This document shows, in pieces, positions 24,873 to 27,686 of a stretch of DNA of 40,169 nucleotides. Position numbers and translations under genes: made by a program. The notes beneath the pieces were generated by a model that saw only the letters and a list, made by a program, of their open reading frames with translations, searched no databases and was not told the DNA's origin. How positions within the stretch are numbered: position 1 is the stretch's first letter; the number at the start of each line of letters is the position of its first letter. The DNA is from an uncultured Candidatus Saccharibacteria bacterium. GTDB lineage: Bacteria > Patescibacteriota > Saccharimonadia > Saccharimonadales > Saccharimonadaceae. The DNA is taken from NCBI GenBank assembly GCA_937858705.1, contig CALLZM010000008.1:1-40169 (forward strand), given 5' to 3'.

Positions 24873-25056
24873 TTGGTGCGATTTTACAACCAAGTCAGAA
24901 CCGATTTCGAGCAAAACGGCTGAGCCGTGCAGGCTCAGCCCCAACGCCTGCGCGGGCAAGCCCGCGCTCGCCCCACCAGAAAAACCCTTTGCCTTATTTT
25001 TTTGAATTTCCCCCCGCCGAGATTTCTTTTTTAGTTGTAAAGGGTGTTTCTGGTGG
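24841..25056. repeat. Left 216-bp inverted repeat of the defence island
   Basis: Nearly identical, in opposite orientation, to 28741-28956; by eye there are about four substitutions, two one-base indels and a flipped hairpin loop. It contains a series of palindromes: a terminator hairpin (24841-24872), GGCTGAGCC/GGCTCAGCC (24918-24940), GCGCGGGC-AA-GCCCGCGC (24951-24968) and CCACCAGAAA...TTTCTGGTGG, which closes the inner part (about 24974-25056). There is no coding potential. This and the next 84 bases make up the gene-free stretch 24813-25140. Confidence 0.95.
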
Positions 25057-25081
25057 TTCGACTACTGCACAAGCAATAGAG

Positions 25082-25130
25082 GTGTTGGGGCTTCGCCCAG
25101 GCGGCAAAGCCGCCGCGCTACGCGTTCTCA
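25082..25130. repeat. Cluster of GC-rich hairpins
   Basis: GGGGCTTCGCCC and GGCGGC-AAA-GCCGCC lie just beyond the stop of the tail-anchored island gene, between it and the left repeat. They may protect or end the leftward message, but no U tract follows. Confidence 0.55.
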
Positions 25131-25986: not shown

Positions 25987-26434
25987 GGATAATCCTCACC
26001 TCCAATCCATAATTATTTATCATTAACACGAGAAGAATAAGCATAATAAGCACTGTGCCATAGAACAGCACTAATACAGGGCGACCGAAGAAAGTCTTCA
26101 GCCAGCACTTGAATGACCTGTCGCCTTTATCTGGGGTTAGCGTGTAATCAATCTTTTCTGGCTCGATTACGGCGACTTTGTTATAAATATTCCGAAAAGC
26201 CCGCTCCAGCATGAGATAGTAGGCGTCAACGCTCCAAAATAGTAATGTTGATACGATAGGCACAGCCATAAGAGCTGTATTTGAGTCTTGCGCCGCAAAT
26301 GCCGATATACCAGCGATGATAGTGATTGACCACCCCTTGAATAGGAAAGAGTTTGACGCCATACGATTAACCACACCTTGTATGAGTTCAAGATGTTTGC
26401 GTTTATCTTCGGCTGTTGTACCTCCGTTTGCCAT
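25976..26434 (-). CDS. Multi-pass membrane protein heading the TIR cassette, candidate effector
   Basis: 152 residues from ATG 26434 (MANGGTTAEDKRKHLELIQG). Two close membrane segments (WSITIIAGISAFAAQ; ALMAVPIVSTLLFWSVDAYY), a cytoplasmic linker of about 45 residues (LERAFRNIYNKVAVIEPEKI), then a third segment (VLVLFYGTVLIMLILLVLMI). The FWSVDAYYLMLERAFRNIYN block looks like the conserved core of a small membrane family that I associate with TIR neighbours; I cannot name a Pfam entry. TTGCAA-17-TATAAT lies upstream, with the -10 6 nt from the ATG: leaderless. Membrane disruption on TIR signalling is the working idea. Confidence 0.8.
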   Translation of the reverse strand: MANGGTTAEDKRKHLELIQGVVNRMASNSFLFKGWSITIIAGISAFAAQDSNTALMAVPIVSTLLFWSVDAYYLMLERAFRNIYNKVAVIEPEKIDYTLTPDKGDRSFKCWLKTFFGRPVLVLFYGTVLIMLILLVLMINNYGLEVRIIHGS

Positions 26435-26532: not shown

Positions 26533-26561
26533 TTCACCTTTTTTCAGTAGTGCGATATAAT
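26533..26561 (+). promoter_or_regulatory. Promoter of the structured RNA / methyltransferase unit
   Basis: TTCACC (26533-26538), 17-nt spacer, TATAAT (26556-26561). Divergent from the TIR cassette promoter, about 65 bp apart. Predicted start at GGG 26566-26568, which begins the closing helix. Confidence 0.7.
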
Positions 26562-26565
26562 AAAA

Positions 26566-26698
26566 GGGCAACAACTAAATAATCAAAGCGCCTCGGCATG
26601 AGGAGCTTAACGCTTGAAAGGCGGTCATTTGGCTTACTTTCAATTGGTGCGTTAAGCTCTGATTGTTTAGTTGTTGCAGCCAGTGGCTGCCTTTTTTG
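26566..26698 (+). ncRNA. Structured leader or free RNA ending in a terminator, before the methyltransferase
   Basis: 18 continuous base pairs (one G-U) join 26568-26585 (GCAACAACTAAATAATCA) to 26660-26677. Stacked inside are 11 bp (GAGCTTAACGC 26603-26613 with GCGTTAAGCTC 26649-26659) and 7 bp (TTGAAAG 26614-26620 with CTTTCAA 26637-26643), with a 16-nt apical loop, a 5-nt bulge and a 17-nt side bulge that can make its own CCTC/GAGG hairpin. GCAGC-CAGTG-GCTGC and T6 (26692-26697) form an intrinsic terminator whose first two bases are shared with the closing stem. A further hairpin GTAGTT/AACTAC lies right before the methyltransferase ribosome site. Not a class I recognise. Confidence 0.75.
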
Positions 26699-26747
26699 TT
26701 GGTTGGTAGTTCCGCGGCTTTTAACTACAGGAGGGACGACCAGACCA

Positions 26748-27686
26748 ATGACCAGAAAACAAAAGTACACCGTGGTATCTCTATTCGCTGGAGCTGGCGG
26801 CATGGATATTGGCTTTGACCTTGAGGGCTTTAAGACAATATGGGCGAACGATTTTGACAAAGATGCTTGTGAAACGCACAAGGCGTGGTCGGGCGCAGAA
26901 GTGGTTTGTGGCTCTATCGAGAAAGTTGATTTAGACACACTACCAAAGGCTGACGTTGTGCTTGGTGGCTTTCCGTGTCAGGGCTTTAGCCTTGCGGGGC
27001 CACGTAAGGTTGATGACAAGCGCAACGTCCTATACCAGTACTTTGTAAAGGTCATTGAAAAAGTACAGCCTCGTGCTTTTGTCGCAGAGAATGTCAAGGG
27101 TATTCTCACGCTTGGCGGCGGCGAAATCATCAAAGTGATTATTCAAGAGTTTTCAGATAAGGGGTATAACGTACAGTTCAAGCTACTGAACGCAGCCGAC
27201 CATAACGTACCCGAAGATCGTTTTCGTGTCATTATGGTTGGTATCCGCAAAGATGTAAAAACGGATTTTTCATACCCAGAGCCAGCAAAAGAAAAAGTAA
27301 CGCTTAAACAGGCGCTTGGTCATTTTTCTGAACCAAAAGACGGCGAGGTATTAGAGGGCGGCTTTTCGCCACGCTTTATGAGCCGAAACAGAAAACGAGG
27401 TTGGGACGAACAGGCATTTACAGTCCCTGCTATGGCAAAGCAAGTAACACTCCACCCCTCATCTCCAGACATGGTAAAGCTCGATAAAGACCTGTGGCAG
27501 TTTGGTAAAGGCAAAACACGGCGATTATCGTGGCGAGAGGCTGCTGCCGTTCAGACTTTCCCCGAGGACATGCACTTTGCTGGTAATCTGGTGTCTATTT
27601 ATAAGCAGATTGGTAACGCTGTACCCGTTAATTTAGCACGAGCAGTGGCGAGTGAGCTGTATAAATCACTGGGGCGTGCGGAGTAA
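26748..27686 (+). CDS. DNA cytosine-5 methyltransferase, M.HaeIII-like (predicted GGCC)
   Basis: 312 residues. Motif I VSLFAGAGGMDIGFDLEGF binds SAM; motif IV GGFPCQGFSLAG holds the catalytic Cys; motif VI is FVAENVKGIL; motif VIII VPEDRFRVIMVGIRK; then FMSRNRKRGWDEQAFTVPAM and motif X YKQIGNAVPVNLA. The variable region, including FMSRNR and the Q-x-x-LHP block, matches M.HaeIII closely, so methylation of GGCC is likely. The start at 26748 follows AGGAGGG (12 nt spacing); the open frame further upstream covers the structured RNA and is not protein. The nuclease gene overlaps the stop (TAATG). GGCC sites are common in the window. Confidence 0.94.
   Translation: MTRKQKYTVVSLFAGAGGMDIGFDLEGFKTIWANDFDKDACETHKAWSGAEVVCGSIEKVDLDTLPKADVVLGGFPCQGFSLAGPRKVDDKRNVLYQYFVKVIEKVQPRAFVAENVKGILTLGGGEIIKVIIQEFSDKGYNVQFKLLNAADHNVPEDRFRVIMVGIRKDVKTDFSYPEPAKEKVTLKQALGHFSEPKDGEVLEGGFSPRFMSRNRKRGWDEQAFTVPAMAKQVTLHPSSPDMVKLDKDLWQFGKGKTRRLSWREAAAVQTFPEDMHFAGNLVSIYKQIGNAVPVNLARAVASELYKSLGRAE

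Follow-up and report, generated by a model that had tools for sequence, protein, structure and literature searches.

In the preQ1 and ZTP riboswitch classes, a pseudoknot competes with a terminator in the 5' leader. The same kind of competition is predicted for the leader described here. Unlike in those classes, the hairpin loop here pairs directly with the 3' arm of the terminator, few unpaired nucleotides are conserved, none of the riboswitches in Rfam matches, and the genes that follow the leader (its clients) share no pathway. The leader lies in a 40,169-nucleotide stretch of Saccharibacteria DNA (the window), upstream of a type II restriction-modification (R-M) operon. According to a review, almost nothing is known of how Patescibacteria regulate their cell cycle or of the mechanisms behind their epibiosis (PMC11665869). 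An attenuator that is conserved and covaries in many of their genomes would be a concrete regulatory mechanism, testable in cultivated Saccharibacteria. It would also supply a new RNA family for annotation, add RNA attenuation to the known controls of R-M operons, and could be used as a native part to control expression in Patescibacteria.

The leader in the window and its flanking genes

The coordinates of the leader and the genes behind it are given in Table 1. Positions 26566-26698 fold with a minimum free energy of -57.5 kcal/mol (RNAfold, z = -6.29), and none of 200 shuffled sequences folded as well. The original prediction of a long hairpin with blocks of 18, 11 and 7 bp, placed behind a good promoter and ended by a terminator sharing bases with the closing stem, was thus confirmed; the bases common to P1 and the terminator are two, G26676 and C26677. 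The TATAAT box (26556-26561) ends about 6 nt 5' of the start of the leader RNA, and judged from its position the transcript should start at about 26567-26568, within the first bases of P1. The last base of the small hairpin P2 probably competes with P3; hairpins resembling P2 were seen by eye on the 5' side in many members of the family described below. An open reading frame in frame from ATG 26598 across the hairpin and a short leader peptide starting at TTG 26613 were both considered, and no support was found for either.

Table 1 Features of the leader and the following operon, in window coordinates
Feature	Position	Strand	Basis
Promoter TTCACC-17-TATAAT	26533..26561	+	Consensus match 10/12
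Leader RNA, predicted attenuator-family member	26567..26698	+	Covariance models R1, R2
P1 closing stem, 18 bp	26568-26585/26660-26677	+	RNAfold; P1 covaries in family
P2 small hairpin CCTC-GGCAT-GAGG, 5' side	26591..26603	+	Direct reading
P3 inner stem, 11 bp	26603-26613/26649-26659	+	RNAfold
Apical stem-loop, 7-bp stem (26614-26620/26637-26643) plus loop	26614..26643	+	RNAfold
Putative pseudoknot strand AAGGCGGTCATT, pairs with 26682-26693, 3 G-U pairs	26618..26629	+	Shuffle test; family covariation
Intrinsic terminator GCAGCC-AGT-GGCTGC-C-TTTTTT	26676..26697	+	Sequence scan
Loop, 3' arm and initial Us of the terminator, which can pair instead with the apical loop	26682..26693	+	Shuffle test; family covariation
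Shine-Dalgarno-like AGGAGG	26729..26734	+	Direct reading
C5 DNA methyltransferase, presumed regulated gene	26748..27686	+	Pfam DNA_methylase 6.7e-72
HaeIII-family restriction endonuclease, overlaps methyltransferase stop codon	27686..28663	+	Pfam RE_HaeIII 5.7e-123

The element was also correctly placed between divergent defence genes. To its left, on the minus strand, are PDC-M50A, a gene for a ThsB-like TIR protein and one further gene, and to its right, on the plus strand, is the HaeIII-type R-M pair. A sequence scan found no recognisable promoter between the terminator and the methyltransferase ATG, and the R-M operon therefore probably depends on read-through; an undetected promoter may lie inside the hairpin. 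On the minus strand, 6 nt separate a TATAAT (26446-26441) from an in-frame ATG of PDC-M50A at 26434, so that this gene may be leaderless, and nested GC-rich hairpins closing onto a terminator are present just downstream of the TIR cassette (24920-25098).

The best relative of the methyltransferase, with 88% identity, belongs to Candidatus Saccharibacteria NP70 (locus L002). The DNA upstream of the L002 gene cannot be aligned with that of the window, the global identity of 55% being equal to that of shuffled letters. Its layout is the same, with TATAAT, closing stem, inner stems, a terminator fused to the stem, and the gene. Hence, these two orthologous R-M operons have leaders that differ in sequence and share one architecture. 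A generic feature of HaeIII R-M systems was considered and rejected, as distant HaeIII-like systems from Saccharibacteria and other phyla gave no match to the covariance models. Upstream of Lachnospiraceae-type HaeIII methyltransferase genes (L011, L012, L014, L015, L018, L021), a conserved hairpin of roughly TTGTACGACCGACTATGGGTGAAACAA was observed, which may be another, distinct regulator acting on R-M systems of this type.

An RNA family and its divergent copy in the window

When 654 kb of the window's genome were scanned for stems that close onto a terminator, 11 candidates emerged; a single first-order random copy yielded none. Several of the 11 were coding DNA or a tRNA-like stretch, and meaningless; one, at L095:14588 (hereafter the canonical member), was located after a TATAAT and before a small gene. 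With this leader and the start of the following gene as blastn query, 27 of 151 related genomes were matched, about 20 of them through leaders, some weak matches being partial or to the gene. A covariance model of 19 leaders (R1), from which the window and L002 had been left out, recovered the window element exactly at 26567-26698 with an E-value of 5e-4 in 779 kb searched, all model E-values coming from short calibrations. On the window alone with filters off, R1 gave the element an E-value of 2.6e-5 and the next match 1.6, and it found the L002 leader at 8.5e-5 in the 6.9 kb of that locus. A second model (R2), based on 73 members and built without the window, L002 and L109, returned E-values of 3e-6 for L109, 7e-5 for L002 and, in 701 kb, 0.0056 for the window element. 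The window element scored 25 bits, compared with best background scores of 16.4 bits (R1) and 15.0 bits (R2) in 415 kb of other methyltransferase loci and 16.9 bits in its own genome. By blastn, the window element matched only itself among phages and its own genus, and in 394 genomes of its family it gave, beyond its own copy, short matches only, some of them to real members.

At E <= 0.01, R1 found members in 102 of the 394 same-family genomes, in 41 of 61 genera, and phylum-wide 14 of 240 genomes had a member, several of them in other families of the phylum. Among near-complete relatives, 17 of 26 carried at least one copy according to R2. The window's genome, which was searched whole with the models, has three copies (C6:254589, C21:6211 and the window element), a fourth match being the antisense of C6:254589. 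Judging from these comparisons, which cover about 120 family loci, the window hairpin is one copy of an RNA family common in Saccharibacteria; its assignment to the family rests on both models, on its distance from the promoter, on its overall design, on the complementary loop strand and on the leader of the orthologous L002 operon.

A TATAAT with at most one mismatch was found upstream of 91 of 96 members, and in 88 the distance from the end of the box to the element is 6-7 nt, a spacing that the window element fits. The downstream open reading frame lies on the same strand and usually begins no more than 60 nt past the U-run, with a Shine-Dalgarno sequence. Covariation of the fold in related genomes, by which the original prediction was to be checked, was present: P1 covaries strongly on an unfitted alignment, and its covariation was 0.612 versus 0.198 for shuffled data on a model-fitted alignment of 105 rows that includes a few reverse-strand matches and leans towards structure. 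The terminator hairpin itself is conserved across the family, and G-U pairs occur both in P1 and in the loop helix. P1 usually ends in GTC...GAC, shared with the terminator; the two nucleotides shared in the window are GC and not GTC/GAC, and L002 departs from the family here too. The window copy, whose loop pairing ranks fourth from the bottom and includes three G-U pairs and whose model score is low, is among the most divergent members.

Several matches stood out as side observations. Four IMG/VR contigs classed as viral (L253, L254, L255, L256) carry a family leader, and the leader of L253 precedes a small protein of a family found behind several chromosomal leaders. Remote matches in other families of the phylum (L261, L262) stand before serine-recombinase genes; in both the loop helix is present and the 5' arm of the terminator is not obvious. 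L241 and L275 are decayed members, L241 having lost its terminator.

Most downstream genes, by inspection of the sequences and not by a topology predictor, seemingly encode small membrane or secreted proteins (DUF4352, DUF5067, DUF4190, DUF2726, bacterial PH domain). Other clients are pilin-like and PDC-S11-like genes, resolvases, an N6/N4 methyltransferase and two HaeIII-type operons. Leaders 92-98% identical were observed ahead of unrelated genes in four pairs of loci (L171/L175, L158/L160, L234/L237 and L229/L233), with 96-98% identity before unrelated proteins in the first two. Such near-identical leaders suggest that genes or leaders were exchanged at the module. Where leaders are 85-95% alike, their flanks are barely more similar than random pairs; family leaders are far better conserved than flanking DNA, the opposite of the poor conservation that would have spoken against the original prediction. 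The leader behaves like a modular unit, either exchanged or under a constraint of its own. We tentatively consider, as a possibility somewhat short of even, that modular RNA attenuators occur phylum-wide in Patescibacteria, swapped among accessory genes and tied to one common cellular signal. If so, the accessory clients would be surface proteins, pilin-like proteins, nucleases and R-M systems, the R-M operon of the window being one client among them, and the common signal could be, for example, host attachment.

Loop:terminator pairing and the proposed attenuator

In all 95 members tested, a strand of the apical loop is complementary to the 3' arm of the terminator over 8-16 nt, mostly at least 10. 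The median score of this pairing was 28 versus 13.5 for shuffled interiors, and every member exceeded the 95th percentile of its shuffles. The window copy has a 12-nt match, a score reached by 1% of shuffled interiors. When 73 members were aligned by sequence alone, the helix of ten pairs between loop and arm was 99.2% paired, with a covariation of 0.498 compared with 0.158 when shuffled and at most 0.109 when slid. Double changes numbered 121 versus 23.7 in shuffles; as related rows enter counts of this kind repeatedly, these do not represent independent events. The distinct pairing types observed numbered 43. Since this 3' arm is also the partner of the terminator 5' arm, the pair immediately beyond the terminator stem was examined. 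Between loop and arm this pair is GC in 72 members, CG in 18, TA in 4 and AT in 1, and the terminator side can pair at the same position in only 6 of 95. Hence, the covariation at this position stems from the loop:arm helix. The As beside the loop strand, conserved at 93%, 93% and 72%, could extend the helix into the U-run. At the family level, both pairings of the terminator 3' arm exist and covary in the alignments; in the window copy itself the mutually exclusive pairings are present as complementarity only.

Formation of the loop:arm helix excludes the terminator hairpin and vice versa, as is characteristic of attenuators in which a pseudoknot serves as antiterminator, and the element is quite probably a cis-acting transcription attenuator of this type. 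RNA polymerase would start at about 26567, and the nascent RNA would open with the 5' strand of P1. Once P1 and the inner stem had folded, the apical loop would be displayed, and the 3' arm of the terminator, when made, would have two mutually exclusive partners. Pairing with the adjacent 5' arm would give the terminator hairpin with its U-run and a stop before the methyltransferase; pairing with the apical loop would give a pseudoknot, in most cases of 10-16 pairs, that destroys the terminator and allows read-through into the R-M operon. By occupying part of the terminator 5' arm (2 nt here, usually GAC), P1 would favour read-through. In vivo, the pseudoknot would thus be expected to work as the antiterminator.

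The mean raw helix energies, without loop penalty, are -22.3 kcal/mol for the pseudoknot and -11.0 kcal/mol for the terminator. As these energies favour the pseudoknot and P1 consumes part of the terminator 5' arm, read-through would be favoured when nothing is bound to the loop, a direction of switching that rests on uncorrected helix energies. A factor occluding the loop would then shift the leader to termination. Since little unpaired sequence is conserved, namely the A-rich joints, the factor would most likely be a protein or an RNA, and the scarcity of conserved unpaired nucleotides speaks mildly against a small-molecule aptamer.

Among the roles first proposed, an attenuator controlling the methyltransferase is supported: the element leads the R-M operon, L002 has a family member in the same placement, and the exclusive pairings covary across the family. 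A switch is likewise upheld by these pairings, but the two bases shared between closing stem and terminator, originally read as the switch, gave way to the loop:terminator pseudoknot. Base sharing as such was rejected as proof of a switch, as an unrelated RNA elsewhere in the genome (L087:17765) shares bases likewise and has no gene evident downstream on its strand.

The leader might alternatively be an independent small RNA, about 130 nt long and acting in trans, whose 3' end is normally set by termination, read-through to the R-M genes being secondary. Its paired 5' and 3' ends and the terminator abutting the stem resemble stable small RNAs, and L087:17765 is a different RNA of that design in the same genome. 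This reading is nevertheless improbable, as a helix between loop and 3' arm that competes with the RNA's own terminator is needless in a plain small RNA, nearly all members stand 13-60 nt ahead of a same-strand open reading frame, and the R-M operon showed no further promoter. Somewhat less improbable, but still unlikely, is a constitutive limiter of dosage in which the competing pairings set a fixed partial read-through and sense nothing. The very diverse client genes and the little unpaired sequence conserved apart from A-rich joints agree with it; a plain terminator would be enough for a fixed level, however, and an alternative pairing kept so strictly suggests use.

Leaders that are 95-98% identical can precede unrelated genes and have unrelated flanks, which suggests exchange of the unit and would fit a DNA-level element, such as a mobile inverted repeat or an attC-like single-strand recombination site, that happens to lie between promoter and gene. 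We give this very little weight, because the G-U pairs in P1 and the loop helix, the loop covariation, the fixed -10 spacing and a terminator with a U-run argue for RNA; a leader could in any case be mobile and still function as RNA. Least probable of all are roles as a substrate of RNase III or as an RNA that partners the TIR cassette. The duplex is long and PDC-M50A and the ThsB-like TIR gene adjoin, but the RNA is transcribed away from the TIR genes and the other family loci examined carry other, often unrelated, downstream genes, which leaves the proposed link to the TIR cassette without a basis. The RNase III and free-RNA ideas are less economical than the attenuator.

Comparison with described RNAs and regulators

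Neither the window nor the canonical member matched Rfam 15 at the gathering score, and a relaxed threshold gave chance-level matches only. The 6S RNA and the small SRP RNA were rejected as candidates, RF00013 and RF00169 being without a match in this genome at E <= 10. A search of open-access literature, mostly by title and abstract and as such weak evidence of absence, brought up neither an RNA of this kind from Saccharibacteria or Patescibacteria nor a type II R-M operon under the control of an RNA attenuator; the putative RNA switch family is apparently new to the literature. Two other RNAs were observed along the way. At L087:17765-17916 (G000:C6, adjoining argS), an RNA with promoter, long hairpin and terminator contains GGGTCC-AGCGAAG-AGCAACCC, which by eye resembles the apical domain of SRP RNA; it has no Rfam match, including to RF00169. 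An AdoCbl-II riboswitch above threshold is present in this reduced genome at L095:6979-7050 on the minus strand.

Like the 6S and SRP RNAs, the element is a long self-closed hairpin with its own promoter and a terminator after it; unlike them, it occurs in several copies before coding genes and has the loop:terminator pairing. The order of promoter, RNA, terminator and gene recalls type III toxin-antitoxin loci (ToxIN-like), but here there is a single hairpin without tandem repeats, a methyltransferase and an endonuclease follow in place of a toxin, and the clients are diverse. With classical attenuators and T-box leaders it would share one strand with two alternative partners, giving terminator or antiterminator. 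It differs from these in that no covarying leader peptide or tRNA-binding elements were recognised, and in that the strand for antitermination comes from an apical loop some distance away and would form a pseudoknot, not a local hairpin. If the mechanism is right, the element governs a type II R-M operon, as C-proteins, methyltransferase repressors and antisense control do, but by RNA attenuation in the leader.
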